Source: Thermoanaerobaculia bacterium
GTDB lineage: Bacteria > Acidobacteriota > Thermoanaerobaculia > Thermoanaerobaculales > Sulfomarinibacteraceae
Direction of reading: 5' to 3'
Assembly: GCA_027067575.1 (NCBI GenBank)
Contig: JAMOVQ010000036.1
Location: 1-56,538, forward strand
Length of the DNA stretch: 56,538 nucleotides
Positions 21,883 to 40,857 of the stretch are shown here, piece by piece. The notes under the pieces are model-generated. The model was not told where the DNA came from. It did no database searches and worked only from the letters and a program-made list of their open reading frames with translations. The first letter of the stretch is position 1; the number at the start of each line of letters is the position of its first letter. The position numbers and the translations under genes were made by a program.

Positions 21883-22668
21883 GTGACCGAGACCGTTCTT
21901 GCGCTGGATGTTGGCAACACCCACACCGTGGTGGGGTTGTTCGAGAACCGGAAGCTGGTCACCGACTGGCGGCTGGCAACTCACTCCGAGCGCACGGCAG
22001 ACGAGAACGGGTTGTGGCTGCGCCAGATGCTGGACTGGCACGGCGTATCCCCGGACGTGCTGGCCGGGGCGGCCGTTTCCTCTGTCGTACCGCCCCTGGA
22101 CCCGCTCCTTGCCGAGGGGATCCGCCGCTACCTCGGGCTCGAACCGTTCTTTGTGAGACCCGGAATCCGGACCGGGATGCCGCTCCGGGTCGAGGCGCCC
22201 CAGGAGCTGGGTGCCGACCGCCTCTGCGACGCGGTGGCGGCCTACGCCAAGTACGGCGGCCCCTGCCTCGTGCTGGACTTCGGCACCGCCGTCACCTGGG
22301 AGGTGGTCTCGGCGAAGGGTGAGTACCTTGGCGGCGCCATCGCCCCCGGCCCGGGCGTCACCGCGGACGCCCTTTCATCGAAGACGGCCAAGCTGCCACG
22401 GGTCGCCATGGAGCCCCCTCCGCGGACCATCGGCAAGGGGACGGTGGACAGCATCCAGATCGGGATCTTCTACGGCTACCTGGGCCTCGTGGAGGGGGTC
22501 ACCCGGAGGATCCTCGCAGAACTCGGCGGCGACGCGCCGGTCATCGCTACGGGCGGCTTCGCGCCGGTCATCGCCCGGCACTGCGCGTTGATCGGCCACG
22601 TGGAGCCGGACCTGACGCTGGAGGGCCTGCTCATGCTCTGGGAGCGGAACCGCGAGGACGGCCGCTGA
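21883..22668 (+). CDS. coaX: Type III pantothenate kinase
   Basis: 261 residues, usual for CoaX. It phosphorylates pantothenate in the first step of coenzyme A synthesis. ASKHA-type motifs: LALDVGNTHTVVGLF (phosphate 1), GADRLCDAVAAYAKYG, LDFGTAVTWEVV, GGAIAPGPGVTADAL, and IATGGFAPVIA (adenosine). The GTG start at 21883 has GGGGGG upstream. The stop overlaps the pgsA start as TGATG. Confidence 0.93.
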   Translation: MTETVLALDVGNTHTVVGLFENRKLVTDWRLATHSERTADENGLWLRQMLDWHGVSPDVLAGAAVSSVVPPLDPLLAEGIRRYLGLEPFFVRPGIRTGMPLRVEAPQELGADRLCDAVAAYAKYGGPCLVLDFGTAVTWEVVSAKGEYLGGAIAPGPGVTADALSSKTAKLPRVAMEPPPRTIGKGTVDSIQIGIFYGYLGLVEGVTRRILAELGGDAPVIATGGFAPVIARHCALIGHVEPDLTLEGLLMLWERNREDGR

Positions 22669-23291
22669 TGACCGGGAGCGAGAGCGGGGCGAAGGGCCGT
22701 CTCCGGACGAAGGTCCAAGAGAAGCTCCGTCCGCTGACGTTGCCGAACTTCATCACCCTGCTCCGTCTCGGGATGGTTCCGTTCTTCCTGCTCTCGGTCA
22801 ACCAGGGCGAGTACCTCGTGGCGCTCGCCGTGTTCGTCCTGGCCGGGCTGACCGACGCCATGGACGGCGCCGTGGCACGCTGGTTCGACCAGTGCTCCCG
22901 GTTCGGGACCTACCTCGATCCCATCGCGGACAAGATCCTCTTGGTCTCCGCCTACGTGGCGCTGACGGTCCCCCAGGGGCAGTCCGTGACCATCCCAGTG
23001 TGGCTGACCCTGCTCGCGCTGTCCCGGGATGCCCTGATCGTCCTGGTGGCGCTGATCCTGTTCCTCGTCGAGGACATCCGTACATTCCGACCGAGCAAGT
23101 GGGGCAAGGCGACAACGTTCATGCACGTGGTGACCGTCGCCGTGGTACTGTTCGCCAACGTCACACCGATCCCGGAATGGATCCCCAACGCCTGTTTCCT
23201 CGTCTCCCTCGTGCTCGTCGTGATCTCCGGCTTTACCTACGCCTACCGCGCGGTCCGGATGATCGAGGAGAACCGCGAGGCCGTCCGCTGA
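22668..23291 (+). CDS. pgsA: CDP-diacylglycerol-glycerol-3-phosphate 3-phosphatidyltransferase
   Basis: 207 residues, integral membrane enzyme that makes phosphatidylglycerophosphate. The CDP-alcohol transferase signature is present: DAMDGAVARWFDQCSRFGTY followed by LDPIADK (D-x2-DG-x2-AR ... G-x3-D-x3-D). Several hydrophobic helices (FFLLSVNQ, ALIVLVALILFLV, FLVSLVLVVISGF). The start overlaps the coaX stop. Its TGA lies inside a 13-bp direct repeat (23283-23295) that marks the left edge of the defence island, and its last 59 bp overlap the antisense 3' end of hsdR. The coding sequence itself seems intact. Confidence 0.94.
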   Translation: MTGSESGAKGRLRTKVQEKLRPLTLPNFITLLRLGMVPFFLLSVNQGEYLVALAVFVLAGLTDAMDGAVARWFDQCSRFGTYLDPIADKILLVSAYVALTVPQGQSVTIPVWLTLLALSRDALIVLVALILFLVEDIRTFRPSKWGKATTFMHVVTVAVVLFANVTPIPEWIPNACFLVSLVLVVISGFTYAYRAVRMIEENREAVR

Positions 23292-26277
23292 CATCCGTTG
23301 AGGTCAGATCAAACACCCTGTCCGTCAGCCAACGTCGGAAACCTTCGTTGTCCATGAACTGTTTGAAGAGCTCGGTATCGTCACGAAGCAGCGCAGTCAT
23401 GACCCGCTCCAACGCCCTGGCATGCTCGATCCGGGCGTTCTGACGATCGGAATTCTCGAGGGCATTCCTGTAGGCCTCATCGGCGGCAACACGTGCGGGA
23501 ATCTCCTCCGTAATCAACCGATGAACGCGATCGGCATCGCTCCAAGGAATATTCCCAAACTGCTCGTTGAACTCCTTGATGATGTTGGAGAGACGGTCGA
23601 GCTCCGGTTCTGGCTTGTGTCCTCCTCCGCTGACCGGAATTGGTCCGATCTCGGTCTCCTCGTCGGCCAATTGAATCGGCATGGCCGACCGTTTTTCCAC
23701 CCGGTAGCTGTCCATATCGATCGCTTCCAGGATACCCCGGGAAAGATCCTCCTCTCGGGGTGCAGGGAGCTTGGGCACGAGAAAGGTCAGAAAGATCGAG
23801 AGTTTCTCCCACTCGGCGTTCGTGTAGGGCAGCACCTGGGAGAGGAAACCGTAGGTCCGCAGAAATGCCTTGGCCTTGCCCTTGAAGTCCACTTGGCCAT
23901 TCTCATCGAGTTCCTGCTGGTACGTGGCCACGCAGGCATCCAGGATCGGATCAAGGCGGTCACGATCCGCCCCATCCAGGTAAAGCCGCACCAGCTTCTC
24001 CACCTGCTCCGGCGAGTAAATCTGCGCCCCATCCAGGTCGGCCTTGAGGTCGTGGAGCTTGTCCGGATCGGTCTCGTCGGCCAGGATCGTCGTGCGGTAG
24101 TAGGGCTCGAAGGCCTCGCGGATGGTGTCGGCATCGTTCTGGAAGTCAAGTACGAACACGTCGTGCTTCTTCGGGTGTGCACGGTTGAGCCGTGAAAGGG
24201 TCTGTACTGCCTTGACCCCAGAAAGCGGCTTGTCCACATACATCGTATGGAGGAGCGGCTCGTCGTAACCGGTCTGAAACTTGTCGGCACAGACGAGGAA
24301 ACGATACGGGTCCTCACGGATCCGGTCAGCGATCTGGTTCGACGGAAAACCGTTCAGCGAGGCCTCGGTCACCGTCTGTCCGCCGTACTCGTGCTCGCCC
24401 GAGAAAGCAACGATGGCACTGTAGGGACTCTTCCGCTCAGCGAGGTACTCGCGGATCGCATGGTAGTACTGGATGGCGCGATCGATTCCACCGGTCACCA
24501 CCATGGCACGTGCCTGACCACCGATCTTGTTCCTGGCGATCACCTGTTCGTGGAAGTGGTCCACCATGATCTCGGCCTTGAGCCGAATTGCGTGCTGATG
24601 CCCCTCCACGTAGCGGCGGAGCTTCTTTTTCGCCTTCCGCGTGTCGAACTCGGGGTCGTCCTCGATCTTCTTGACCAGCTTGTAGAAGCTCTCCACCGGC
24701 GTGAAGTTGCGCAGAACGTCGAGGATGAAACCCTCCTCGATCGCCTGTTTCATGGTGTAACTGTGGAATGGCCGGTGCCTGACGGTGCCGTCGGCTTGCG
24801 GCACCGGCTCGCCGAAGAGCTCCAGGGTCTTGTTCTTCGGCGTGGCCGTGAAGGCGAAGTAACTGGCGTTGGGCAGGAGCTTCTTGGCCTCGATCAGCCT
24901 GTTGATTCGATCCTCGAAGGTCTCCTCCTCGTCGCCGACGCCCGCGCCGGCCAGCGCCTGGTGCATCTTGGCCGTGGTCCGTCCGCCCTGGCTCGAGTGT
25001 GCCTCGTCGATGATGATGGCGAAGCGGCGGCCCCGGTGCTCGGTCCCGATCTCGTCGAGGATGAACGGAAACTTCTGCACCGTCGAGACAATGATCTTCT
25101 TCCCCTCGGCCAGGAAGCGGCGCAGGTCACCCGATCGTTCGGCGTGTCCCACCGTCGCGCCCACCTGGGCGAACTGCTTGATGGTGTCTCTGATCTGCCG
25201 ATCGAGGATGCGGCGATCGGTGACGACGATGATCGAGTCGAAGATCACTTCCTCCTCCCGCGTGAGCCCAATGAGCTGGTGGGCGAGCCACGCGATGGAG
25301 TTCGACTTGCCGCTGCCGGCGGAATGCTGGATGAGGTAGCGCCGTCCGGCACCGTATTCGCGCACATCGGCGAGGAGCTTGCGCACCACGTCGAGCTGGT
25401 GATACCGGGGCCAGATCTGCTTGCGGCGCTTCTTCCCGGTCTTCGGGTCCTTCTCCTCCACGATCTGGGCGAAGTTTTCGAGAATGTCGGTCAGGCTCTC
25501 ACGGGTGAGGATCTTCCTCCACAGGTAGTCGGTCTTCAGCCCGTCAGGGTTCGGCGGATTGCCTGCACCATCGTTCCATCCCTTGTTGAAAGGCAGGAAC
25601 CAGGAGGCCTTACCCTGCAAGTGAGTGCAGAACCGGACATCGTAGTCATCCACCGCAAAGTGAACGACACAACGACCGAACTCGAAGAGCTTCTCGCGAG
25701 GGTCACGGTCACGCCTGTACTGTTCGACCGCATCCTGCACCGTCTGCTTGGTCAGGCTGTTCTTCAGCTCGAAGGTCGCCACCGGCAGACCGTTGATGAA
25801 CAGGACCAGATCCAGGGCCCGGCGAGCCTCGTCCCGTGAGTAGCGGAGCTGGCGGGTCACACTGAAGCGGTTGGCGGCAAAGCGTTCGGATGCTGTGGGG
25901 TTGCCCGGAGAGGGCGTGCCATAGAAGAGGTCCAGGCGGTGTGGCCCGTGCTGGACGCCGTGGCGCAGCACATCGATGGTACCCCGCTTACTGATCTCTC
26001 TCTGGAGCCGTGCCAGGAACTTCCTCCGAACCGGCCCATCCTCGGAAAGCGCCAGCGCCTCGGCCACCTCGGGCTGTGTCTCTCGCAGGAACGCGGAAAG
26101 CTGGACAAGGTCCACACAGAACTCGCGGTCGTAGTCATCAGCATGGCCGCCGATCCACCCCGCTCCGTAGGCCGCCAGGCGGTCGTGGGCACCATCCGCC
26201 CCGGGATCACAGGCCCACCCGGTCAGCGCCACACAGATCAGCCGTTCGAGGCCACGTTCCGAAGTATCGGTGGTCAT
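23233..26277 (-). CDS. hsdR: Type I restriction enzyme, R (motor/nuclease) subunit
   Basis: 1014 residues. N-terminal nuclease (about 150-175): LDLVLFINGLPVATFELKN, the D...E-x-K site. Then a SF2 translocase with Walker A HSAGSGKSNSI (about 315), IIIDEAHSSQGG (about 420), FTATPKNKTLELFG, MVVTGGIDRAIQYY and QTLSRLNRAHPKKHDVFVLDF. It cuts DNA after ATP-driven translocation when recruited by HsdM/HsdS. ATG at 26277, with GGGGGAGG close upstream. It is separated from the other hsd genes by 333 bp carrying a repeat pair, so it may be controlled separately. The last 20 residues (from D995) are encoded by the island-edge repeat and antisense pgsA sequence and are Arg/Pro/Ser-rich, unlike the rest. 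Confidence 0.95.
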   Translation of the reverse strand: MTTDTSERGLERLICVALTGWACDPGADGAHDRLAAYGAGWIGGHADDYDREFCVDLVQLSAFLRETQPEVAEALALSEDGPVRRKFLARLQREISKRGTIDVLRHGVQHGPHRLDLFYGTPSPGNPTASERFAANRFSVTRQLRYSRDEARRALDLVLFINGLPVATFELKNSLTKQTVQDAVEQYRRDRDPREKLFEFGRCVVHFAVDDYDVRFCTHLQGKASWFLPFNKGWNDGAGNPPNPDGLKTDYLWRKILTRESLTDILENFAQIVEEKDPKTGKKRRKQIWPRYHQLDVVRKLLADVREYGAGRRYLIQHSAGSGKSNSIAWLAHQLIGLTREEEVIFDSIIVVTDRRILDRQIRDTIKQFAQVGATVGHAERSGDLRRFLAEGKKIIVSTVQKFPFILDEIGTEHRGRRFAIIIDEAHSSQGGRTTAKMHQALAGAGVGDEEETFEDRINRLIEAKKLLPNASYFAFTATPKNKTLELFGEPVPQADGTVRHRPFHSYTMKQAIEEGFILDVLRNFTPVESFYKLVKKIEDDPEFDTRKAKKKLRRYVEGHQHAIRLKAEIMVDHFHEQVIARNKIGGQARAMVVTGGIDRAIQYYHAIREYLAERKSPYSAIVAFSGEHEYGGQTVTEASLNGFPSNQIADRIREDPYRFLVCADKFQTGYDEPLLHTMYVDKPLSGVKAVQTLSRLNRAHPKKHDVFVLDFQNDADTIREAFEPYYRTTILADETDPDKLHDLKADLDGAQIYSPEQVEKLVRLYLDGADRDRLDPILDACVATYQQELDENGQVDFKGKAKAFLRTYGFLSQVLPYTNAEWEKLSIFLTFLVPKLPAPREEDLSRGILEAIDMDSYRVEKRSAMPIQLADEETEIGPIPVSGGGHKPEPELDRLSNIIKEFNEQFGNIPWSDADRVHRLITEEIPARVAADEAYRNALENSDRQNARIEHARALERVMTALLRDDTELFKQFMDNEGFRRWLTDRVFDLTSTDVSGRPRGSPRSSGPRGRRR
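23283..23295. repeat. Left 13-bp direct repeat flanking the island
   Basis: GTCCGCTGACATC, identical to 35643-35655. It includes the pgsA stop codon (CGC TGA) and, on the other strand, the codons where HsdR leaves its normal C-terminus. A likely integration or target duplication site. Confidence 0.6.
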
Positions 26278-26299
26278 CGCCTCCCCCTTCCGCCTCCTT

Positions 26300-26322
26300 C
26301 GATCAAGTACCCATCAATTACC
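26300..26322 (-). repeat. Direct repeat copy proximal to hsdR
   Basis: Minus strand reads GGTAATTGATGGGTACTTG and on to GATCG. It matches 26390-26412 at 18 of 23 positions. It lies 23-45 nt upstream of the hsdR ATG, where a repressor or activator could act. Confidence 0.4.
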
Positions 26323-26389
26323 ATGACAACCTCAAGAACCTCACAACACCAATGAGTTACAGGAGCACATCCACGAGGCCAGCCCTTCG

Positions 26390-26412
26390 GGATCACGTAT
26401 CCATCAAGTAAC
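26390..26412 (-). repeat. Direct repeat copy distal to hsdR
   Basis: Minus strand reads GTTACTTGATGGATACGTG and on to ATCC. Partner of 26300-26322, with centres 90 bp apart, about nine helical turns. Confidence 0.4.
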
Positions 26413-26610
26413 CCAGCAACCCTCTCAGACCCGCTCTTTCGGTCATTGCTTCTTCCTGCTCCTTTGTTAGGCCCTTTGTTAGAGAAGGATATTTCGCCCC
26501 AATCCAACAAAGGAGGAAATTGCCCCCCACGAAGGGAGTTACAGCTCATCCGGCAGTTGCAGCCCAAGATATTCAGGACTGTACTGGCCAGCATTCTTTG
26601 CTCTGTATGC

Positions 26611-28284
26611 TCAGGCATCGCCCGCGTCCTTGATGTACCACGCCGGTTGTGCACGAGTTCCCCGGTTCTCAATCTTCCCCGCCCGGCGGAGTTCCTGCAT
26701 CAGGTTATGGACCTTTCGGCGTTTCTGCTCCCCAGTCAGGCGATCCGGCAACTTCGGCAAGAGAAGCTGGTCCACATCCTTCCGATTCACCGGTTCATGC
26801 TCCCGAACCAGGGCAAGGATCAGGTCAAGGTAATACTGCTTGTCGAACCCCTTTTCACGGATGTGACGGCCGGCTTCGCCAGCCGCCTTCGCAACGATTC
26901 CGGCCACGATGAGGCGAGGATAACGCCCTTCGACCAAACCAGCCGCCTTCAGGCGGCGGTGGTCGTCGCGAGCGATTCGTTGCCCCTTCTGTACCCTGTC
27001 GAGGAGCATCACCTGCATGAGATCCAGGTCGGTTCGCTCCATCAGGAGACGCGTGTACCGTTCGTCCAGAATCCGGCCTGCAAGACTCACGCTCACCATG
27101 CCGGGTGTGCTCAGGTCGTAGTCCGGCAACGGAAACGAACGGCGCCGCTGCGTCTCGAACATCCGCTTGATGCCACCGCCCTGCGTGTCGATCAGGTTCA
27201 GCTCGACCATAGCGTCGGCCAGGAACGGGTTGCGGTAGATGGCCTGCGGTGCATCCTGCCGTATCACTATCTCAACATCTCCCGGCAGGAACTCTCCCAC
27301 GTTGGTCACGAGCACGCGATCGGGAAACTCCACGAGTGTGATGCGCGCATGCCGACGATAGTCCTGGTGTGCAATGGCGTTGTGGAGCGCCTCGCGAATC
27401 ACCCAGGGATCGTATTGTGTAATCTCCTGGGGAAAGAGCGTACCGCTCGGGAGTGCCCGCACCACGAGATTACGGATGCGCTGCATCACCCTGTCGCCCG
27501 CCAGCAGGAACGGTGGACCGATGTGCTCGTAATCGAGCTCCCGGTCCTCGGCATCCTTCAAGATCCACGAGATCTTCGCCACTGCAGGCGATAGCAGGGT
27601 CGCAGACTCGGGACGGCCGAGCAGGACGAGGGCGGTATGCGTGACTTCGCCCTGCCGGAGCACCCGCGCCTTGTTGAGAAAGGTCCGATCGTCCCAGGCG
27701 GCGACCTCCTTCGCCTGCGCCGGGTGCTTGACAATGAACTGGTTGCGCGCTGTGGCGATCGCCTCAGGATCGAGATCATCCAGTGAGGCCGCCGAACAAA
27801 CCTCGGCAGACCAGTCGCTTCCACGGGTCCAGATGGCGCGTTCCTTCTCGGGGTGGTTGTGTAGCATGGTCTTGCTCGAACCCACACGAATGTACGCTGT
27901 CCCATAGAACCTGACAGGCTCGCCGTTCGCCGGCCCGACCTCGAACAGCACGACACGGCCATCCGGATGACCGACCACGTGGGTTTCGATACCGGTGTTG
28001 GGTCGCAGACCTGCCGACAGCCACGGGAGCAGATCCTGGTTCCCCTTGCCCTTGACCCCAAACGGATCGAATCGGGTTCCGACCACATCGTGGCTCGCAT
28101 CGTCGATGCCGAAGATGAGATAACCGCGGGGCTGGCCCGCCAGGCAGGCGGAGTTGGCAAGGGCCGAGAGATATTCACCGATCTCCTGCGGGTTGTATCG
28201 CCTGCGCTTGAACTCGAACCACTCCGTCTCCACCGGCAGGGCACGCAGCCGGTCGATGAGCGCCACCAACGCCCGCTCCTTCAT
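26611..28284 (-). CDS. AlbA_2 (Schlafen-like) / HATPase_c_4 protein of the R-M operon
   Basis: 557 residues. The N-terminal AlbA_2 domain (about 15-140) has TEWFEFKRRRYNPQEIGEYL, NSACLAGQPRGYLIFGIDD and the GTAYIRVGSSK end. A RecG-like/HATPase_c_4 region follows (about 290-345: PWVIREALHNAIAHQDYRRH, VLVTNVGEFLPGD). A winged-helix end closes the protein (about 480-550: EPVNRKDVDQLLLPKLP ... RRAGKIENRG). Related proteins are common accessory genes of type I R-M loci, with proposed nucleic-acid binding and regulatory or nuclease roles; the function here is unknown. Its ATG overlaps the hsdS stop as ATGA. Confidence 0.85.
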   Translation of the reverse strand: MKERALVALIDRLRALPVETEWFEFKRRRYNPQEIGEYLSALANSACLAGQPRGYLIFGIDDASHDVVGTRFDPFGVKGKGNQDLLPWLSAGLRPNTGIETHVVGHPDGRVVLFEVGPANGEPVRFYGTAYIRVGSSKTMLHNHPEKERAIWTRGSDWSAEVCSAASLDDLDPEAIATARNQFIVKHPAQAKEVAAWDDRTFLNKARVLRQGEVTHTALVLLGRPESATLLSPAVAKISWILKDAEDRELDYEHIGPPFLLAGDRVMQRIRNLVVRALPSGTLFPQEITQYDPWVIREALHNAIAHQDYRRHARITLVEFPDRVLVTNVGEFLPGDVEIVIRQDAPQAIYRNPFLADAMVELNLIDTQGGGIKRMFETQRRRSFPLPDYDLSTPGMVSVSLAGRILDERYTRLLMERTDLDLMQVMLLDRVQKGQRIARDDHRRLKAAGLVEGRYPRLIVAGIVAKAAGEAGRHIREKGFDKQYYLDLILALVREHEPVNRKDVDQLLLPKLPDRLTGEQKRRKVHNLMQELRRAGKIENRGTRAQPAWYIKDAGDA

Positions 28285-29768
28285 GCCCTTGCCTCCTCGG
28301 AGTCGCGATTGGGGCCATCGGCCGGTTTCTCCGCAACGAGATCGTCTTCGATTCCATCCAGCGGCTCGGGTTCCTCGTCCTCCTCCGGCAACCGTGCCGC
28401 TACCTCGCGCACGTCAAGCTTGCCCGTGACCACATCAGAGATCAGGCGGGTGCGGAGCTCGTTGAGGAGGGTGATCTCCCGCTGGGTGGCGGTGATAGCG
28501 GTGTCTATCGTCCCAAGATTATCATCCAACCACGCAGCCACGGATTGTTGTTCGACCAGTGTGGGAAGTGGTATCCGCCAACTCCGCATCCTTTGTTGGG
28601 ATATCTTTGGCATTGTTCCGCTCGATCCCTGAGCGCTCTGCTCGATCTGGTTCCGACCAACCCGCGACAAGAGCAACTCCATTAGGAAGCGCGCATCGAT
28701 GAGTATATTTCGTAACCTCAGTCGATAAACTAAGTCGCACAGAATTGTACGGGGGCGCACACCTTCTGCGATGCAAACATCGCCAACGCGGTCAAGGGTG
28801 TTTGAACGTGTGATAAGCAGATCCCCGTTGGACAGTTCTATTCCGGGAGGTATCGAGGAACCAGTAGGAATCGGCTTGACAGCACCTGAATCGAATCGTC
28901 CGCGTCTTACGGCGGAAAGAGTGAGCACAACCCACTGAATTTCATCAATCTTACCTTCTGCGGCAACGGGACTCCAACCTTGGTCGATGCGGTCAATGCA
29001 CCGCGCCAATTGAACCACCTCCCAATGCTCCGGCACCTCGCCCAGCCACTCGACCCCCGAGTCCTTGTAGGCGGGGTAGGGCTTGCCGGTGCGGACATCG
29101 ATCCGGCCGGTGACGGCCTCGTGGATGAGCGCCTGCTTGTACTCCTCCAGCAGCTCGATCCGCCGCTTCCTGGCCCGGATGGAGCGCCGGATCCGCTGGT
29201 CCACGTAGTCGAGGAACCGGACGATGGCGACTTGCTCAGGAAGGGGGGGGAGGGGGAGCGCAAGGCGCTTCAGCTCCGACCCGTAGATGTGCGCCACCGT
29301 GAACCCTCGGCCCACGCACGCTTTCTGATGCCGTGAGGCAGGCGCATCCGCCACGAAACCAAGGAAGTGCGGGATCACCTCGATCGCAGGTCTAAGAACC
29401 AGAATGTCGCCGCCACAACAGGCGTCAGTCTCGATGAGATTTACGGCCGACCTGCCAATATCCTCTATCGTCTCGCCACTCGCGGCGAATAGCACATCGC
29501 CGTACCGAATCGGGGTGTATGCTGACGCTTGTTCCGGCGAAACGAAAGCTCCAGTCTTCCTGATGAAGAACTCGTATTTTGTGTAGAGGTCCCCGTAGCG
29601 AACACAAGGAATCCCGGACGAGACTTCGTCCTCCTTACTTCCTCCGTTTCCCTTGAAGATCTGACCGATGTGCCCGAGCGTAGTAACAGTCCAATGCGCC
29701 GGCACCTCCCCCAGCCACTCAACGCCGGAGTCCTTGTAGGCGGGGTAGGGTTTGAGGTCGGCGATCAT
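28281..29768 (-). CDS. hsdS: Type I restriction enzyme, S (specificity) subunit
   Basis: 495 residues in two similar halves. Each opens with nearly the same sequence (YPAYKDSGVEWLGEVP plus HW, about residues 8 and 229) followed by a target-recognition domain and a conserved helix (LPEQVAIVRFLDYVDQRIRR; LVEQQSVAAWLDDNLGTID). Each recognition domain reads one half of a bipartite DNA target; the target cannot be predicted here. The start overlaps the HerA stop and the end overlaps the AlbA_2 gene, both as ATGA. The internal DNA repeat (see repeats) gives a site for half-gene exchange. Confidence 0.95.
   Translation of the reverse strand: MIADLKPYPAYKDSGVEWLGEVPAHWTVTTLGHIGQIFKGNGGSKEDEVSSGIPCVRYGDLYTKYEFFIRKTGAFVSPEQASAYTPIRYGDVLFAASGETIEDIGRSAVNLIETDACCGGDILVLRPAIEVIPHFLGFVADAPASRHQKACVGRGFTVAHIYGSELKRLALPLPPLPEQVAIVRFLDYVDQRIRRSIRARKRRIELLEEYKQALIHEAVTGRIDVRTGKPYPAYKDSGVEWLGEVPEHWEVVQLARCIDRIDQGWSPVAAEGKIDEIQWVVLTLSAVRRGRFDSGAVKPIPTGSSIPPGIELSNGDLLITRSNTLDRVGDVCIAEGVRPRTILCDLVYRLRLRNILIDARFLMELLLSRVGRNQIEQSAQGSSGTMPKISQQRMRSWRIPLPTLVEQQSVAAWLDDNLGTIDTAITATQREITLLNELRTRLISDVVTGKLDVREVAARLPEEDEEPEPLDGIEDDLVAEKPADGPNRDSEEARA
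29032..29081 (-). repeat. hsdS internal repeat, second half
   Basis: 50 bp matching 29701-29750 at about 46 positions. It encodes the conserved opening of the second recognition half. Confidence 0.75.
29701..29750 (-). repeat. hsdS internal repeat, first half
   Basis: Partner of 29032-29081 at the 5' end of hsdS. Recombination between the two would delete one recognition domain in frame, and such repeats also allow domain swapping. Confidence 0.75.
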
Positions 29769-31855
29769 GCCTCCCCCTCGCTTCCACTCTCCGGCGCTTC
29801 CTGCCAGTGGTGGGCGACCCGTGCCCAGTCCACGTCCCTTGAGATCTTCTGTCCGTCTTCATCCTCACCGATCCACACACCCCAGAAATCTGGGTCGTCC
29901 GAGCGAGGCTGCTGCGACCTGGGGAGGTCGTTCATCCTGACGAGGACCGGAAGCTCTGATGCCCAGCCGAGCAGGATGGCAGTCTGCGAAGGTAAGGATG
30001 GGAGCTCCCGAAGCAGGCCTCTCAGGTTGTCCGGTACGAGGCGCCGGACAAGATCCTGATCCCGGTCGTTGCTGATCCGGTGGAGGAGAAAGGTGTTGCA
30101 TTGAGAAAGAACCGTGGGCGAAAGCTCCGACGGTCGTTGCGACGAGAGAACAAGGCCGAGTCCGAACTTCCTGCCTTCACGGGCAATGCGTTCGAACACC
30201 TGACAACAGATCGTCGCCGCGTCCTGGTTCTCCAGATCCTCCTTGTAGCGCTTGATGAACGTGTGCGCCTCTTCCATCACCAATACCGTTGGAAGCGTCA
30301 CTCCGTTGAGCTTGACGTAACGCTGAAGGGCCTCGAACGTCATACGGGCGATCACAGCCGTGACGACATGGACGACCTCGGTCGGCACCAGAGACAGATC
30401 GATCACCGACACGCAGCCGCTTTCAGCGTTGTTGCTTCCAATGTAGTCGGTGAGCCATTCATCCAGCGTGGTGTCGGACACACCGCCCAGGATCGGTTTC
30501 ATCCGGCTGTCAGTGAGCAGCGAACGAATCCTGACCAGCAACGTTTCAACGTATTCGGATACATTGAGCATCTCCGCAGCCGCCTCGACACTGCGAAGTA
30601 GCGATGCTCCCTCGAAAGGGCGCGGTGCGTCCACATCCGATGGAAGAATGTCGGCCTCGGCGCCCCCGAAGACAGAATATGCCTCGCTCGTCGTCGTCAG
30701 GAGATCCTGAACCTCCTGGCGAGTAAAGTCGTAATGTGGGTATTGCCCGCGGCGCGGAGCGCAAAGCTCCTCGAGCTTGTCGATGAGTGCTTGCAGCCTA
30801 GCCTGCTGGTCGCCAGCGAAAGAACTCAACTCATCTTCCAGCCCAATCTTCCACTTTTCCAATTTCTCGAAAAACGACTTCGGTTTCGGGAATGCCGCCC
30901 AAGGGCTGCCCGCGTTTTGCTCGATCCGAATAGTCGTCACGAGTGTGCGAAGGAACCGGCGCATCTCGTGGCTTGCATCTCCGGTGGGCGTTGTGTGGCC
31001 ATCGCGAACGAAACGGAGCGCGTGCATGAGAGTCGGCCGCTGCGTTTTCGCACTCGCCTGCGTGAAGGAGCACCACTCGGCGCTGTTCCAGAACCACAAC
31101 GGAACCTTGAGCGCCTTCTCGCCTTCGCCGGGGTTCACCTTGAAGATCCGTGCTTGGATTGTCGGATCGTTATTAGAGAAAGCCCGGGAGTACTCGCCGT
31201 TTGGGTCGAGCACAATAAACCGAGCGTTGGGCGTGCCGCCGCAGGTTTCCCTCGCCTGCTCCACACTCCACCGGATCAGTCCGGCAACCGAGCAGGACTT
31301 GCCACTGCCGGTATTGCCAAGAACAGCGAGATGACGCCCGAACAGCCGGTTCGGATCAACAAATACACGGGCATCGCCGGCAAGCGGACTCGTACCAATC
31401 TTGACCCGGCGCCCTTCGCCGGATTCGACGATCGAGCGGAGCTGCAGGTCTGTGGGCAGTACGACGGCGGCACCGACCGAGGGCAGCGCATCGGCGCCCC
31501 GGCGAAAGACGTAACCGTTTCCGTCACGAGCCGTTCGTAGGGTGCCCAATGGGTTGAGGCTGAGTCGGCGCAGCGGATACGGCAGATCCACCAGGCCGAA
31601 ATCCTGCATGCCCCGCCGCTTCGGAAATGGCGAGCGCTCGATCGTCATCCACTCGGTCTGGCCGACAAGAAAGCCATCGTCGACGGGGACGAGCAGGTAG
31701 CCGTTGACCCGGGGGAAGGGTCGAGGCCCGCCCGTATTCAGCGCGACAGAATCCGGCGCTGCGATATCGAGTCCCACCTTGACCTCGTCCGGCGAGACGA
31801 ATTCCACCGTGCCGATGCGCAGACTCTCCACCTGCTCGAAGGGAGTCTGGCTCAT
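29765..31855 (-). CDS. HerA-type hexameric ATPase (SIR2-HerA defence module)
   Basis: 696 residues. An N-terminal HAS-barrel-like part (to about 160) is followed by a DUF87/FtsK-HerA ATPase. Walker A is GNTGSGKS (180-187), followed by RFIVLDPNGEYSRAF. Walker B VLVMEEAHTF (about 528) and SSQRPSELSPTVLSQC with HRISNDRDQDLVRRLVP carry the family sensor/arginine-finger region. In SIR2-HerA (Nezha) phage defence, HerA assembles with a SIR2 NADase and controls it. Here it follows the SIR2 gene with an ATGA overlap, as expected, but precedes hsdS, also by ATGA. Confidence 0.93.
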   Translation of the reverse strand: MSQTPFEQVESLRIGTVEFVSPDEVKVGLDIAAPDSVALNTGGPRPFPRVNGYLLVPVDDGFLVGQTEWMTIERSPFPKRRGMQDFGLVDLPYPLRRLSLNPLGTLRTARDGNGYVFRRGADALPSVGAAVVLPTDLQLRSIVESGEGRRVKIGTSPLAGDARVFVDPNRLFGRHLAVLGNTGSGKSCSVAGLIRWSVEQARETCGGTPNARFIVLDPNGEYSRAFSNNDPTIQARIFKVNPGEGEKALKVPLWFWNSAEWCSFTQASAKTQRPTLMHALRFVRDGHTTPTGDASHEMRRFLRTLVTTIRIEQNAGSPWAAFPKPKSFFEKLEKWKIGLEDELSSFAGDQQARLQALIDKLEELCAPRRGQYPHYDFTRQEVQDLLTTTSEAYSVFGGAEADILPSDVDAPRPFEGASLLRSVEAAAEMLNVSEYVETLLVRIRSLLTDSRMKPILGGVSDTTLDEWLTDYIGSNNAESGCVSVIDLSLVPTEVVHVVTAVIARMTFEALQRYVKLNGVTLPTVLVMEEAHTFIKRYKEDLENQDAATICCQVFERIAREGRKFGLGLVLSSQRPSELSPTVLSQCNTFLLHRISNDRDQDLVRRLVPDNLRGLLRELPSLPSQTAILLGWASELPVLVRMNDLPRSQQPRSDDPDFWGVWIGEDEDGQKISRDVDWARVAHHWQEAPESGSEGEA

Positions 31856-33291
31856 GGTGTCGGCGTCCCCACTCCGGCGTCACTGCCGCCGGGCGTTTCT
31901 TCCTGGCCGTTACCAGCAGTCCACCTAGCCCTGAGCAGTTCCGCCATACGGAAGGTCGTCCGGTCGATTGCTGGCTTTGGAAGGTAGTGGTCTACCAGAC
32001 TCTTGAGGTTCCCGAGATGATCGCCCAACAGCAGCGTGATCTGCGCGTGTCGCCCAAGTGCATCGTACGTCCTCATGATCCGTCCGAGTGGGTCCCCATA
32101 CGAGATTACAACCAGGTGGGCCGACGGGATGGTCAGCATATCCTCGATGGCCCGGTTGATGTGCTCGTCGCCAAAGCTGTAGCCGTAGCAAACCACCGTG
32201 CTGTTCGGCCTGCAAATCGCTGCGGCAAAGTCACGAAACAATTCGACGTACGGATAGGCGGCGGTTTCCCGGTCCTTTGCTGCGTTCGGATAGATCATCA
32301 ATCGTCGGGCGCCCTCGGCATCAGCACCGGCGAGCTCAAGGAACGTCTTCGTGTCCGAAGCACCAAACGGGAGGCCAATCCGGCGAATCGCCCCCTCGCA
32401 GTCCACCCAGTCCACAGACCCGTGCAGTTTCGTGAAACGAGCAACACCTTCGAGATAGCGCGGCTCGCCGCGGATTCCCGGCGGGTTGTAATGAAGGTCA
32501 ACGTCGAGCCTCGACGAGCGAAACACCGGCGCCAACGTGCCCACGAATCGGTCGATCATCCGTAGCCCGGCAACATCGGCTCCCGCCTCGATGAAGCGAT
32601 CATAATTCGTCGTGAAGATGTGCAAACGCTCGCGCGTACCGGATCGGCTGGCGAAGCTCATCAGGAAGCTGACGAGATAGTTGAAAGCCAACTCGCGCTT
32701 GTCTGCCGGGGCCAAGAAAAGGTTTCTTTCTCCTTCGAGGATCGAATGTGCGAACGAGCGAAGGGCATTTTCCAAAGCCTTTCGCAGAGCTTTGACCTGC
32801 GAGTGCTCTTCGGCATCGTTCGGCTTGGTGGCAGCCATGATCTCCAAGCCACGGAGCAGCTCGTTGGCAGCGCGGATCTGGTCCTCGAAGTTTCCCCGGT
32901 CGCGCCCAGCGTGCTCGGCGATACGTTGCGCCTCCGCTGCGATCTCCTCGTTCAGCGTATCGAAAGTGATCGTGTCCATCCCCGGGAGTGAGTCCTCATT
33001 CGCAATTGCATGCACAGCATGAGTTAAGCCGGACCCGATCAGCGACGACAGATGTTCCGACTGAACGAGCGCCGTTAGCCATGGCTCAATCCTGGGACGC
33101 AGCTTCTCCGGTCCGAAGACCTCGTCAACTTTCGCCCAGGAACACGTCGAGTCCTCCGACAGCTTGAACGTTATGGTAGGTTCCTCGGATTGACCGTCAT
33201 CTTTCTTCAGGAAAACCGGAGACTGATCGTCGCGGGTTTTGAGGATTTGGCCTCCCGCGTTAAAAAACTCTTGAAGCTCCTCGGTGGTCAT
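31852..33291 (-). CDS. SIR2-family NADase (SIR2-HerA defence module)
   Basis: 479 residues. The SIR2 fold is divided: IGSGLTHAVH (Gly-rich NAD loop, about 85), FTTNYDRFIE (TTNYD at 227-231) and FTKLHGSVDW with the catalytic His at 290. CYGYSFGDEHINRAI follows near 390. Between the Gly-rich loop and TTNYD is a helical insertion (about 100-215). Defence SIR2 proteins of this kind usually deplete NAD+ on infection rather than deacetylate. The first 75 residues match no known domain to my eye. It overlaps hsdM upstream and herA downstream by 4 bp each. Confidence 0.9.
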   Translation of the reverse strand: MTTEELQEFFNAGGQILKTRDDQSPVFLKKDDGQSEEPTITFKLSEDSTCSWAKVDEVFGPEKLRPRIEPWLTALVQSEHLSSLIGSGLTHAVHAIANEDSLPGMDTITFDTLNEEIAAEAQRIAEHAGRDRGNFEDQIRAANELLRGLEIMAATKPNDAEEHSQVKALRKALENALRSFAHSILEGERNLFLAPADKRELAFNYLVSFLMSFASRSGTRERLHIFTTNYDRFIEAGADVAGLRMIDRFVGTLAPVFRSSRLDVDLHYNPPGIRGEPRYLEGVARFTKLHGSVDWVDCEGAIRRIGLPFGASDTKTFLELAGADAEGARRLMIYPNAAKDRETAAYPYVELFRDFAAAICRPNSTVVCYGYSFGDEHINRAIEDMLTIPSAHLVVISYGDPLGRIMRTYDALGRHAQITLLLGDHLGNLKSLVDHYLPKPAIDRTTFRMAELLRARWTAGNGQEETPGGSDAGVGTPTP

Positions 33292-35267
33292 GACTCACCT
33301 CCGCCGACAATCTCCCCAATCAGTCCCTCCATCTCCTTCTCCACCGCTAGGATGTCCGCACGGATCTCCTCCAGGCTCCGCATGGGCTTGGGCTTGTAGA
33401 AGTAGCGGGTGAAGCTGATCTCGTAGCCGATCTTGACCTTGTCCGGGTCGTACCAGGCGTCGGGGGCGTAGGGCAGGACCTCCCGCGTGAGGAAGGCGTC
33501 GATGCCGCCCTCTTCGAGGAGCGGTACCTGCTCGGTGTCCCGCAGCTCGGTGTCGGGCTCGTACTCGACGACGGCGGGCTTGCCGTTGATGGTCGTCGCG
33601 AACCGGCCGTGCAGGGGATCGGGCGCGGTGCCTTGCTTGTGGATCTTGCGGATCACCGGTGGCGCGTCCTCGGCACGCTCATGGGTCTCCTTGAGCTTCT
33701 TGATCTCGGCCGCCTTGTACGACCGTCCGGGGTCGATGCCCCTGAGACGCAGCGGACGCTCGACGGTCACCTTCCAGTAGCCGAATGCCTCGTTGGGGAA
33801 GATCTTGCTCTGCTCGGTCTCCTCGAAGGCAAGGAAAGTTTGGCAGATCCGCTCGATGTCCTCCTCCGAGAGCTCGCAGTTCTTCTTGCCGAGGTTCTTG
33901 CGCAGGGGTTTGAACCACTGCGTGGCGTCGATGAGCTGCACCTTGCCCCGCCGGTGCTCGGGCTTGCGGTTGGTGAGCACCCAGATGTAGGTGGCAATCC
34001 CGGTGTTGTAGAACATGTTGAGCGGCAGGGCGACGATGGCTTCGAGCCAGTCGTTCTCGATGATCCAGCGGCGGATGTTGCTCTCGCCCTGGCCGGCACC
34101 GCCGGTGAAGAGCGAGCTGCCGTTGTGGACCTCGGCGATCCGGCTTCCCAGCCTGGTGTTCCGCTTCATTTTGGAGAGCATGTTGGCCAGGAAGAGCATT
34201 TGTCCGTCGCTCGACCGGGTGACGAGCGACAGCTCCTCGCCCCTGTGTTGCACGATGAAGCGCGGGTCCTTGATACCCGACTTGCCGCCCATGCGCTCCA
34301 GGTCGCCCTTCCAGCTCTTGCCATACGGGGGGTTGGAGAGCATGAAATCAAATTCGTGGGCGGGAAAGGCGTCGTTCGAAAGGGTAGAAAACTCCGGGCC
34401 GCCGACGATGTTGTCCGCGTTGTGGCCCTCCCCTTTGAGCAACAGATCCGCCTTACAGATCGCGTAGGTCTCGGCGTTGATCTCCTGGCCGAAGAGATGG
34501 ACTGAGACCCTTTTCCCTCGCCGCCTGGCCAGATCCAGGAGGGTTTCCTCGGCGACCGTCAACATTCCGCCGGTTCCACAGGCGCCATCGTAGAGGAGGT
34601 ACGTTCCTGACTCGATCGTCCCGGCGATCGGTTCGAAGATCAACCTCGCCATGAGCTTCACGGCATCTCGAGGGGTCCAGTGTTCGCCCGCCTCCTCGTT
34701 GTTCTCCTCGTTGAAGCGACGGACAAGCTCCTCGAAGATCGTCCCCATCCCGTGGTTGTCCAACGCTGGGAGGCGAATCGAACCATCCTCGTCATAGACC
34801 GGTGTTGGCGCCAGATTGATCCTGGGATCGAGGAACTTCTCGATCAGGGTTCCGAGCGCATCGGCCTTGGAAAGACGTGGTACCTGGTGGAGAAACTCGA
34901 AGTTCTCGAGAATCACCTGAACGTTCGGAGAAAAGCCGTCCAGGTAGTCCCGAAAATCCGCCTTGAGCTGCTGGCGACTGGCCCGAGCGCGGAGATCGCG
35001 GAGCGTGAACTTCGACGTGTTGTAGAAGGCTTGACCTGCCGCTTTGCGCAGCGCCGCATCCTGCTGGATGATACCTGCGTCATCGAGAGAAGCCTTCATC
35101 TCCAGGACCTGTTTCTTTGTTGGTTCGAGGACCGCGTCAAGACGACGGATCACCGTCATCGGCAGGATGACATCGCGGTACTTCCCCCTGACGTAGAGGT
35201 CGCGAAGGACATCGTCCGCGATACCCCAAATGAAGTTCGTGATCCAGGTGACTTGAGATGTGTTCAT
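33288..35267 (-). CDS. hsdM: Type I restriction enzyme, M (N6-adenine methyltransferase) subunit
   Basis: 659 residues. N-terminal helical HsdM domain, then the methyltransferase: SAM-binding YDGACGTGGML (about 225) and catalytic NPPYGKSW (about 311). It modifies adenine in the target chosen by HsdS and protects host DNA. It is longer than the E. coli EcoKI subunit (about 529 residues), with a C-terminal extension (from about 480) typical of the larger HsdM group. ATG 35267 has GAGGGA 6 nt upstream; an earlier in-frame start at 35285 lacks one. It is the first gene of the operon, with a promoter-like pair at 35435-35463. Confidence 0.95.
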   Translation of the reverse strand: MNTSQVTWITNFIWGIADDVLRDLYVRGKYRDVILPMTVIRRLDAVLEPTKKQVLEMKASLDDAGIIQQDAALRKAAGQAFYNTSKFTLRDLRARASRQQLKADFRDYLDGFSPNVQVILENFEFLHQVPRLSKADALGTLIEKFLDPRINLAPTPVYDEDGSIRLPALDNHGMGTIFEELVRRFNEENNEEAGEHWTPRDAVKLMARLIFEPIAGTIESGTYLLYDGACGTGGMLTVAEETLLDLARRRGKRVSVHLFGQEINAETYAICKADLLLKGEGHNADNIVGGPEFSTLSNDAFPAHEFDFMLSNPPYGKSWKGDLERMGGKSGIKDPRFIVQHRGEELSLVTRSSDGQMLFLANMLSKMKRNTRLGSRIAEVHNGSSLFTGGAGQGESNIRRWIIENDWLEAIVALPLNMFYNTGIATYIWVLTNRKPEHRRGKVQLIDATQWFKPLRKNLGKKNCELSEEDIERICQTFLAFEETEQSKIFPNEAFGYWKVTVERPLRLRGIDPGRSYKAAEIKKLKETHERAEDAPPVIRKIHKQGTAPDPLHGRFATTINGKPAVVEYEPDTELRDTEQVPLLEEGGIDAFLTREVLPYAPDAWYDPDKVKIGYEISFTRYFYKPKPMRSLEEIRADILAVEKEMEGLIGEIVGGGES

Positions 35268-35434
35268 GTTGCGTCCCTCTTCCAAAGAAGTGACGTGCTC
35301 ATCCTTCCCTCGGCGGCACTGCCTTCCTCCCGCGTTGCCGGGACCTGTTGGGCTTGAAAGGACGACGACGGTATGAGGTCATGCCCTGCCCAGACGGGTC
35401 GACGATGGGAGAGGGCCGTGTGTCCATCGCGATC

Positions 35435-35463
35435 ATTGTAGGACCTTCTGCGTGGACAGTGAA
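35435..35463 (-). promoter_or_regulatory. Putative hsdM operon promoter
   Basis: Minus strand TTCACT (35458-35463), 17-bp spacer, TACAAT (35435-35440). It would give a leader of about 160 nt before hsdM and drive hsdM-SIR2-herA-hsdS-AlbA_2. Confidence 0.5.
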
Positions 35464-35642
35464 CCGCGGACCGGGGCCCGCTACGGTCCCGGCAGGGTCC
35501 AGCAGCCTGGGTCGTCGCTGGCGGGTACCGGTGGCGCGTGTTGCGTGCGGATTGGCCTTGCCCCAATCCGGTACGCAGGTCGGCTCGCTTCTATGGGACT
35601 TGCCCTGTGGAGAACCGCAGGGAACGGGAACGGACGGCTACT

Positions 35643-35655
35643 GTCCGCTGACATC
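35643..35655. repeat. Right 13-bp direct repeat flanking the island
   Basis: GTCCGCTGACATC, identical to 23283-23295 at the pgsA 3' end. The two copies are 12.36 kb apart and enclose only defence genes. Confidence 0.6.
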
Positions 35656-35788
35656 ATCGGGCGGTGGCGTTCGCTGACAACTGGCACTGGTGCCGCGGGT
35701 CGGATAGACTGACGGAAACAGGGGCCTCAGATCGCACATGGGTCGTGATCCTGGGCTGTTCACGAGGCAACCGCGTGGAGGAAAGGCG

Positions 35789-37747
35789 ATGGTCCGACCT
35801 TGCACATGCCGCTCTCTCGTTTCGGCCGTTCTGGCCCTGACGATACCCGCCGTGGCGCTCTGCGGGGACTGGCCACGGATCCCGGAGAGCGAGCGTACCC
35901 TGACGCAGATCGCAGATCACCCAAACGCTCCGGCTGTCGTGCTTTTCGAACGGGGATCCATCGTCTTCAGCCGGCGCTCGGTGTCCTCGTACCTCCAGGT
36001 GTACCGCAGGGTGAAGATCCTGCGAGAGAGCGGGGTGGGGTACGGCTCGATCTCGATCCCCTCGACGCCGTACTTCAGGGTGAAGGACGTCGAGGGACGG
36101 ACACACCTTCCGGACGGACGAACCGTCGATCTTCCGGAAGATGCCGTCTTCTCAAAGAGCTATTCGGGGTTCTACAGGCGGGAGGTGATCTCCGTCGCCA
36201 TGCCGCGGGTCACCGTGGGGTCCATCATCGAGTACCGGTACAAGGTGTTCTTCGACTCGATCGTTTATCCGGAACCGTGGTACTTCCAGTCCGAGATTCC
36301 CGTACTTCACAGCGAGATCGTGTACTACATCCCGAGTTCGTACCGGTTCAAGCCCTATGGCGGAACGCTCCTCCGGGGCCGGACGATCGAGAGCAGAATT
36401 GAGAAGAAGCCAAAAGGGCTGGCCGTGACATTCTTCATGGACAACCTCATCCCGATCCCGGACGAACCGCTCCGGTACCCGATGGAGGACCTCTCGAGCT
36501 GGGTCATCGTGCTTCCCGATCTGTTCGATTCCGGTGTCTTCTCGATGGTCTTGCTGGCCGACTGGGACTCCGCAGTCGACCGTATCCGCGGGAACAGCGA
36601 CTACGGGTACGTGTTCTTCCGGAGGCGAGCCGGCAAGGCCAAATCGAAGGCGAAGGAGCTCGCCGCGGGAGCGGACGATCCCGAGGGCCGGGCGCGCGCG
36701 ATCTACCGTTTCGTGCGCGACGAGCTCGTCACGGAAGCGGGCGGCGGTATCTCAGTGGGCAGACAGACGGGCAACGAGGTCTTCGAATCCGGCAGGGCGG
36801 ACTTCACCGAGAAGGCCCTTCTACTCCAGCTCATGCTCCGGAAGGCCAAGGTGCCGGCCTCGCTCGCCTGGGTCCGTCCGGTCTTCCTCGGACACGTCCG
36901 CCGGGAGGTCCCCAACCCCTACCAGTTCACCCGGAGCCTCGTCGTGGCGAAGCTGGGCGGGAAGGAGGTCTTCCTCTACCCGTGCGATCGCAGGTTGGCG
37001 TTCGGCGCCCTTCCTCCGTCGCTGGAGGGAGTCCCCTGCCTGGTTCTCGACAAGGGCAAGCCGAGATGGGCCACGACGCCGGTCACCCCAGCCGGGCAAT
37101 CCGCGACCGTCGCCAAGCTCCACATGCACATCGACGACAAGGGTCGGATCAGAGGAAACGGAACGCTGACGTTGACCGGGCACTCCGCCTGGTCTCGGCT
37201 TCGCTGGAGGGACACGAGGACCGAGAGGCTGACGAGGTGGACCGAATGGCTCGAGGATCACATGGGAGGGCTCTCGGCGGACGGCGTCGAGCTCGAGGAG
37301 GATGTGGAGGGCCGTTCGGTGACGGTGCGATGGACCATCGGGCCGGCCGACGAGGATGAGGCGTTCGACGAGATCGAACTGCCGGTCACCGTGCCGCTGA
37401 CCCGTTCGGACAACCCGTTCACCCTCCCGCCCTCGAAACGGTTGACCCCGGTCCTGTTGCAATATCCGTTCGCCCAGTCGGTCGAACTCCATGTCAGCTG
37501 GCCCGAGGGGTGGGCCGTCGATGTCGCGCCACGGTTCGTGAACTTTGCCAACGGTGCAGGACGGGTCTCCGGTACGGTCTGGACGGACCCGGAGAGGCGG
37601 ACCATCGAGATCGCGACGTCCCGGTTGATCCGGCGGAGGGACTATCCGAACGCCTCGGACTACGTGCAGGTACACGACCTGTACGAGAAGCTGACGGCCA
37701 ACGACGAGGAGGAGCTCGTCCTTGTCCGGGAGGAACCGGACCGGTGA
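35789..37747 (+). CDS. DUF3857 protein with degenerate transglutaminase-like domain
   Basis: 652 residues. Signal peptide (SLVSAVLALTIPAVALCG), a DUF3857 beta domain (YLQVYRRVKILRESGVGYGS; VTVGSIIEYRYKVFF), then a transglutaminase-like core near 300-400. At the nucleophile position it reads GRADFTEKALLLQLML (about 337), so the Cys of the usual GDCKDKA is missing and the domain is probably not catalytic. ATG 35789 has GGAGG 7 nt upstream. The next gene, a full-triad homologue, overlaps by GTGA. Together they look like a pseudo-enzyme/enzyme pair in the periplasm. Function is unknown. Confidence 0.85.
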   Translation: MVRPCTCRSLVSAVLALTIPAVALCGDWPRIPESERTLTQIADHPNAPAVVLFERGSIVFSRRSVSSYLQVYRRVKILRESGVGYGSISIPSTPYFRVKDVEGRTHLPDGRTVDLPEDAVFSKSYSGFYRREVISVAMPRVTVGSIIEYRYKVFFDSIVYPEPWYFQSEIPVLHSEIVYYIPSSYRFKPYGGTLLRGRTIESRIEKKPKGLAVTFFMDNLIPIPDEPLRYPMEDLSSWVIVLPDLFDSGVFSMVLLADWDSAVDRIRGNSDYGYVFFRRRAGKAKSKAKELAAGADDPEGRARAIYRFVRDELVTEAGGGISVGRQTGNEVFESGRADFTEKALLLQLMLRKAKVPASLAWVRPVFLGHVRREVPNPYQFTRSLVVAKLGGKEVFLYPCDRRLAFGALPPSLEGVPCLVLDKGKPRWATTPVTPAGQSATVAKLHMHIDDKGRIRGNGTLTLTGHSAWSRLRWRDTRTERLTRWTEWLEDHMGGLSADGVELEEDVEGRSVTVRWTIGPADEDEAFDEIELPVTVPLTRSDNPFTLPPSKRLTPVLLQYPFAQSVELHVSWPEGWAVDVAPRFVNFANGAGRVSGTVWTDPERRTIEIATSRLIRRRDYPNASDYVQVHDLYEKLTANDEEELVLVREEPDR

Positions 37748-40772: not shown

Positions 40773-40857
40773 TGGTGCCGAAGGCCGGACTCGAACCGGC
40801 ACGGGTCGCCCCACACGGCCCTCAACCGTGCGCGTCTACCAGTTCCGCCACTTCGGC
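40773..40857 (-). tRNA. tRNA-Leu, anticodon GAG
   Basis: 85 nt with an encoded CCA end. Acceptor stem GCCGAAG/CTTCGGC, D-arm starting TGGCGGAACTGGTAGACGC, anticodon stem CACGG/CCGTG around TTGAGGG (GAG, reads CUC/CUU), a long variable arm as in type II tRNAs, and T-arm GCCGGTTCGAGTCCGGC. It lies 45 bp after secG and has its own promoter-like pair. Confidence 0.97.

Follow-up and report, generated by a model that had tools for sequence, protein, structure and literature searches.

The operon in the window

The analysed window is a stretch of 56,538 nucleotides (nt) from Thermoanaerobaculia bacterium (assembly GCA_027067575.1, contig JAMOVQ010000036.1, positions 1 to 56,538 of the forward strand), which carries a type I restriction-modification (R-M) operon with the genes of a SIR2 protein and a HerA ATPase inserted in it. 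On the minus strand hsdM, SIR2, HerA, hsdS and an AlbA_2/HATPase gene follow each other with a 4-bp ATGA overlap at all four junctions, and the operon is completed by hsdR, which lies 334 bp further on (Table 1). The type I R-M set is complete: HsdM has an N6-adenine methyltransferase domain with the catalytic NPPY, HsdS has two target-recognition domains, and HsdR has a nuclease-type N domain and a superfamily 2 translocase. A preliminary description of this DNA had reported the five ATGA-joined genes; all junctions were verified in the sequence, and the domains were verified by Pfam and PADLOC. The interval it gave (28281-35267) is right for hsdM to hsdS and leaves out the AlbA_2 gene, which sits at 26611-28284, and the type I R-M operon it named is indeed complete, with an intact hsdR (23233-26277) that was missing from its five-gene picture.

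Table 1. Genes, joints and base composition of the operon in the window.
Feature	Position	Strand	Evidence
hsdM, type I N6-adenine methyltransferase subunit, 659 amino acids (aa)	33288..35267	-	HsdM_N 1.1e-21, N6_Mtase 1.7e-52 (Pfam); SNPPYGKSW motif
SIR2 NADase-type effector, 479 aa	31852..33291	-	SIR2_2 (Pfam); PADLOC SIR2 PDLC04079 1.2e-157
HerA-type hexameric ATPase, 696 aa	29765..31855	-	DUF87 1.1e-21 (Pfam); PADLOC HerA PDLC04098 4e-254
hsdS specificity subunit, 495 aa, two target-recognition repeats	28281..29768	-	two Methylase_S stretches (Pfam)
AlbA_2 (Schlafen-type) and HATPase_c_4 accessory protein, 557 aa, in the hsdS/hsdR joint	26611..28284	-	SLFN_AlbA_2 8.1e-15, HATPase_c_4 7e-12
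hsdR restriction/translocase subunit, 1014 aa, intact	23233..26277	-	HSDR_N 2.8e-21, SWI2_SNF2 9.8e-29, T1R_D3-like
hsdM/SIR2 ATGA joint, left border of the hsdM/hsdS cargo	33288..33291	-	same as the ATGA/GTGA of the direct hsdM/hsdS junction in relatives with an empty slot (L128, L148, L149, L152, L163)
HerA/hsdS ATGA joint, right border of the hsdM/hsdS cargo	29765..29768	-	hsdS starts M-I-A-D-L-K, likewise in empty-slot relative L163
G+C-poor stretch covering the whole operon	22001..37000	.	about 60-64% G+C vs 67-74% in the neighbourhood

Both inserted proteins have the expected active sites. The motifs GSG, TTNYD and LHGS are present in SIR2, and Walker A (GNTGSGKS) and Walker B (VLVMEEAH) in HerA, which agrees with the GSG, TTNYD, HGS and Walker A and B of the preliminary description. 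The catalytic residues N229, D231 and H290 of SIR2 are conserved in all relatives (88 of 88), operon-embedded or not, as is the catalytic glycine, while K186 of the HerA Walker A is conserved in 87 of 87 and the Walker B (E528/E529) is nearly invariant. SIR2 matches the SIR2 chain 8j4u_A of E. coli Nezha at 2.7e-20 by sequence and 5.9e-30 by profile, and HerA matches 8wiv_A (1.9e-45) and 8j4u_M (1.2e-37); other SIR2-HerA or HerA complexes are also brought up by the sequence searches. The AlphaFold model of SIR2 is poor (mean predicted local distance difference test score, pLDDT, 62.6), yet the E. coli Nezha SIR2 structures rank first; the HerA model (mean pLDDT 56.8) was not used.

Nezha, the known SIR2-HerA system, resembles the pair in the window in gene order (SIR2, then HerA), in catalytic residues, and in sequence or fold matches to the E. 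coli chains 8j4u, 8su9 and 8sub. It differs in length (415 and 610 aa in 8j4u, compared with 479 and 696 aa), shows about 20% identity to the window SIR2 over the SIR2 fold alignment, and stands alone, whereas the pair in the window is inserted between hsdM and hsdS. By sequence, the window pair is assigned to the long-protein branch of SIR2-HerA. The standalone Nezha of V. cholerae was still protective with the rest of its island deleted, and both the SIR2 active site and HerA were required (PMC11559045).

Recurrence of the hsdM-SIR2-HerA-hsdS order

A total of 84,980 species genomes were scanned with a SIR2 alignment and the best 80 loci were taken. The order hsdM-SIR2-HerA-hsdS was found in 13 loci: the window, an IMG/VR contig (L147), and L017, L019, L020, L021, L022, L024, L026, L029, L030, L031 and L033. 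Thus the search proposed in the preliminary description yields 12 further loci, and the order is not confined to the window. Three more loci (L018, L027, L028) are cut by contig ends, with a visible part consistent with this order, and in four (L019, L021, L024, L026) one or more extra genes stand alongside SIR2-HerA in the slot. The 13 loci represent about 12 nominal phyla, including Gemmatimonadota, Bipolaricaulota, Chloroflexota, Latescibacterota, Bacillota, Cyanobacteriota, a euryarchaeon, Pseudomonadota and Nitrospirota; phyla were read from record titles, many of them of metagenome bins, so individual assignments may be wrong. Of the readable junctions, 12 of 13 between HerA and hsdS are 4-bp overlaps with ATG, and so are 4 bp long the overlaps in 10 of 12 between hsdM and SIR2. 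Since both order and joints recur across phyla, the arrangement is not an accident of one genome; it has either been favoured by selection or been passed on several times as a block.

The trees do not support the arrangement having arisen once, as the hsdM tree forces at least 3 changes and the SIR2-HerA tree at least 4. Because only six SIR2 relatives in all were found in IMG/VR, viral spread is not the main route.

The hsdM/hsdS joint as an exchangeable slot

Among HsdM relatives from the window's phylum and from IMG/VR, those at 74-83% identity have other cargo or none between hsdM and hsdS. Nothing stands in the slot in L148, L149, L152, L155 and further loci, whose hsdM runs directly into hsdS through the same 4-bp overlap. 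Where it is occupied, the cargo includes a RecD-like PDC-S68 protein (L127), SoFic (L133), Abi_2 (L150), a YhcG-type nuclease (YhcG/PDC-S02; L135, L140, L157), GmrSD-type proteins (L136, L138, L143, L153) and PRTase-CE (L153, L172, L182), and next to more distant hsdM genes HEPN (L190) and RhuM (L191) occur. Annotated plasmids carry similar insertions: Meiothermus has hsdM-DUF262 (GmrSD-type)-hsdS, and Synechocystis pSYSG has a DUF433/DUF5615 (PIN-type) pair in this joint. SIR2-HerA in the window thus has the features of an embedded system, lying on the same strand and between core hsd genes, with relatives in which the site is empty.

SIR2-HerA carriers do not group together in the hsdM tree but are mixed with the others; parsimony needs 8 changes, at least 3 of them forced by well-supported branches. 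Judged by this tree, the hsdM lineage shows no specialisation for SIR2-HerA. The joint after hsdS is used as well: among 51 loci without SIR2-HerA, cargo is located between hsdM and hsdS in 20 and between hsdS and hsdR in 23, which is about equal use.

The AlbA_2 gene of the window belongs to this second class. An AlbA_2 homologue directly follows hsdS in L138, L143 and L147, and in L138 and L143 it occupies the hsdS/hsdR joint of operons that carry GmrSD-type proteins and not SIR2-HerA; it is absent from most hsd loci with SIR2-HerA. By position and distribution, the gene is classed as cargo of the hsdS/hsdR joint.

Diverse defence or toxin genes in the hsdM/hsdS slot were recorded over L127-L143, L150-L182, L190, L191, L202 and L203. 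Cargo proteins that could not be assigned to a family are found in L130 (228 aa), L132 (236 aa) and L194 (307 aa), and L130 also has a transglycosylase-domain protein. The window's own genome contains a second type I R-M locus (L146, G000:C68), in which hsdM and hsdS overlap by 4 bp with nothing between them, while two genes separate hsdS from hsdR.

SIR2-HerA in other modification systems

The same clade of SIR2-HerA is found well beyond this slot. With type III R-M it forms a four-part arrangement, res-mod-SIR2-HerA-UvrD, in three phyla (L034, L045, L046), and it stands before or after mod-res in L051, L057, L060 and L063. Ten loci combine it with type 1 bacteriophage exclusion (BREX) systems (L047, L048, L050, L055, L058, L065, L068, L073, L077, L093) and six with PglXI-type BREX (L014, L043, L064, L070, L076, L091). 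It lies near a Hma-like methylase in L032, and elsewhere in type I operons in L011, L040, L049, L080 and L088. On the tree of SIR2 plus HerA 30 changes of setting are needed, and near relatives include a type I locus (L049), a type III locus (L051), two BREX loci (L055, L065) and two with no recognised system (L053, L059). An enterobacterial (E. coli) plasmid copy stands alone.

To describe the neighbourhood we used the 49 loci with at least 4 kb of flank on both sides, a sample made up mainly of the 80 best matches and loci of the window's phylum, and not an unbiased census. A same-strand N6-adenine methyltransferase of a defence system lies within 6 kb in 34 of them, and an opposite-strand one in L025 only.

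In three BREX type 1 loci (L050, L055, L065) PglX is split: one gene encodes the methylase half, another the recognition half, and SIR2-HerA lies between them. Compared with the intact PglX of L058, the halves correspond to residues 6-602 and 609-1188 in L050, and to residues 62-602 and 611-1187 in L055; in L065 the split was seen by homology matches only. This placement has the same topology as the hsdM/hsdS insertion in the window, and may reflect either a mechanistic preference or a common recombination site. The split regions span 6498-15232 in L050 and 7938-15501 in L055, and the break falls at the same point, about residue 602-611. HEC-02A/B-type genes accompany SIR2-HerA between the PglX halves in L050 and L065.

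Identical SIR2-HerA copies occur in different genera, namely Pseudomonas and Achromobacter (L064/L091) and Kluyvera and Serratia (L067/L069), which indicates recent transfer. The HerA frame is interrupted in L012 (3009-5090) and L044 (11323-13542), as decayed copies or assembly errors. Among a handful of plasmid loci of other SIR2-HerA clades, four are standalone, one has no annotated SIR2, and one is within a DUF499/DUF1156 methylase locus. The last (L212, Raoultella planticola plasmid pRpKPC-2), in which SIR2-HerA lies between the DUF499 and DUF1156 methylase genes, is another embedding in a modification system. Another HerA model (PDLC02185), used as a control, had no match in the window's phylum or in the control genomes.

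Acquisition of the operon

As G+C content is low across the entire operon (Table 1) and HerA is absent from 29 near relatives, the whole operon, including SIR2-HerA, most likely came in as a single composite block. Among the embedded loci, distances of hsdM correlate with those of HerA weakly (r 0.34) and with those of SIR2 more strongly (Mantel r 0.75, p 0.0002), so the modules also recombine.

Interpretation and alternatives

In our view the locus is fairly likely to be a complete type I R-M operon that bears SIR2-HerA as a portable abortive-infection module in an exchangeable hsdM/hsdS slot. At the level of gene order and sequence comparison, the operon structure, the slot, the exchange of its cargo and the portability of the pair are established; the working mechanism is modelled on intact homologues. 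M2S would methylate host DNA and R2M2S would cut unmodified phage DNA as a first line. SIR2 and HerA would assemble as in Nezha (12:6) and hydrolyse nicotinamide adenine dinucleotide (NAD+) once an infection has passed restriction, for example by modified or anti-restriction phage, so that both cell and phage are stopped. SIR2-HerA would act without contact to HsdM or HsdS, and the modules would be tied mainly by common transcription, ATGA translational coupling and joint inheritance, with no dedicated interface. Given this coupling and the position of hsdS downstream, a polar mutation that loses the cargo would probably cost specificity too. The simplest account has two defences, each with its own trigger, in a single transcription unit. 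The back-up role, which the preliminary description had proposed, fits because in relatives of the R-M genes this joint is taken by other effectors, of known abortive or type IV kinds. Intact SIR2-HerA and R-M genes do share one operon, but both partners are promiscuous, and the idea of a fixed, dedicated five-protein unit finds no support.

That idea, a five-protein machine of fixed proportions linked by AlbA_2, is very improbable. It could appeal to the ATGA at all four junctions; however, such overlaps provide translational coupling and do not imply equal ratios, and stoichiometry is set by assembly (12:6 for SIR2:HerA and 2:1 for M:S). Both halves are exchangeable, and hsdR has no place in the model. 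AlbA_2 as a connector between R-M and SIR2-HerA is ruled out by its distribution, as it is missing from most hsd loci with SIR2-HerA and present in those with GmrSD-type cargo (L138, L143).

A guard model, in which the Hsd complex or its methylation state keeps SIR2-HerA latent and anti-restriction or failed modification frees the NADase, has a precedent in PrrC of EcoprrI, and a published coupling hypothesis names Sir2 in type I R-M operons (PMC3506569; PMC12707154). PrrC-EcoprrI is similar to the window in having an abortive effector gene within an hsd operon. The effector is a different one, and the SIR2-HerA clade of the window is not bound to one R-M family, being found with type III R-M, with BREX and standalone; latency on the Hsd complex, as in PrrC, would be putative for SIR2-HerA. 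SIR2-HerA sits precisely at the boundary of the methylase and specificity parts, both in type I operons and in BREX with a split PglX, and this position speaks for such a model. On the other hand, the same clade pairs with unrelated methyltransferases (HsdM, Mod, PglX, PglXI), the hsdM lineage is not specialised for it, and no methyltransferase was found within 6 kb in 15 of the 49 well-flanked loci (L039 has one at 6.3 kb) nor beside the E. coli plasmid copy. This promiscuity makes a dedicated protein interface less likely; gating by DNA methylation is unaffected by the argument, because the recognised partners are all N6-adenine methyltransferase systems. Taken together, we regard a guard role as possible but rather unlikely. 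A broader proposal is unlikely: guard effectors of N6-adenine systems would in general dock at the boundary between methylase and target recognition (hsdM/hsdS, mid-PglX), and SIR2-HerA placed there would be gated by the methyltransferase, physically or through methylation, and fire when modification or restriction is subverted.

Neutral hitch-hiking would explain the data differently: SIR2-HerA and other defence genes would pile up at hsd joints because recombination concentrates at hsdS and insertions that keep the frame through ATGA are tolerated, with no benefit beyond keeping both defences. The near-equal use of the two joints flanking hsdS (20 and 23 of 51 loci) and the diverse, frequently swapped cargo are in line with it. 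But cargo of recognised family is nearly all of defence or toxin type, with the transglycosylase of L130 as the clear exception, and the recurrent order over about 12 nominal phyla, together with the kept catalytic residues, implies selection. We consider neutral hitch-hiking quite unlikely.

Several observations sit uneasily with a portable module that is independent of its chassis. In the well-sampled chassis SIR2-HerA is found at the hsdM/hsdS joint only and never at hsdS/hsdR, which pure hitch-hiking cannot account for either. The correlation of hsdM and SIR2 distances given above shows that the two genes have some common history, and a loose functional link is conceivable. Finally, the preference of SIR2-HerA for methylase operons over other defence genes is an apparent one, drawn from the sample described above.

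Relation to known systems

Standard type I R-M (hsdMSR) shares the full M, S and R with the expected domains, but lacks the cargo of the window, SIR2-HerA at hsdM/hsdS and AlbA_2 at hsdS/hsdR. Makarova et al. (2012) linked Sir2 enzymes to type I R-M and proposed displacement of toxins in R-M loci, leaving undecided whether the clustering is cooperative or fortuitous (PMC3506569). In the RRDM island, DarTG2 lies between hsdS and hsdR, a site called a potential hot spot for defence systems (PMC12255303). There, as in the window, a second defence is embedded between core genes of the first; the window differs in the site (hsdM/hsdS), the gapless ATGA joints and the cargo. Embedding serves as a discovery principle, with 'guilt-by-embedding' candidates, in the Payne et al. 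2024 preprint as cited in PMC12255303. A BREX survey described back-up nucleases as auxiliary effectors embedded in methylation-based operons (PMC12839542), a similar layout to that of the window. That survey treats nucleases; 'Sir2' and 'sirtuin' are absent from its main text, and a split PglX with SIR2-HerA between the halves was not found there. Our literature search, in which Payne et al. 2024 is represented by the paper citing it, found no paper with hsdM, hsdS, SIR2 and HerA together and none that places SIR2-HerA in the hsdM/hsdS joint. The general idea of an embedded second defence is thus already published, while the hsdM/hsdS slot and the portability of SIR2-HerA were not found described.

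What makes the locus interesting is the exchangeable slot, together with the portability of SIR2-HerA and the parallel to the hsdM/hsdS placement in BREX. These give a countable case for the old question of whether clusters of immunity and suicide genes reflect cooperation or chance. Clean swaps of chassis and cargo would be possible, with a single R-M chassis that accepts different effectors in its slot and a single effector pair that moves among four kinds of modification system. In addition, annotation of R-M and BREX misses embedded effectors, and PglX may be split by such cargo.

Other features of the window

A 132-aa open frame (26274-26672) spans the gap between the AlbA_2 gene and hsdR, overlapping both genes and ending with ATGA at hsdR. 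A DNA search found no conserved relative, the sole match elsewhere being 32 nt in L143, and the frame is possibly a gene remnant. Predictions of internal promoters or terminators in the operon were not above chance, and an Rfam search of 22000-37000 gave no match. About 5 kb past the operon lies the sole tRNA gene of the window, a tRNA-Leu (gag) at 40773-40857; no evidence was found of direct repeats that would mark it as an integration site. The hsdM gene has an alternative TTG start at 35285, and hsdS contains an internal direct repeat of 64 nt, whose copies are 91% identical and 669 nt apart.

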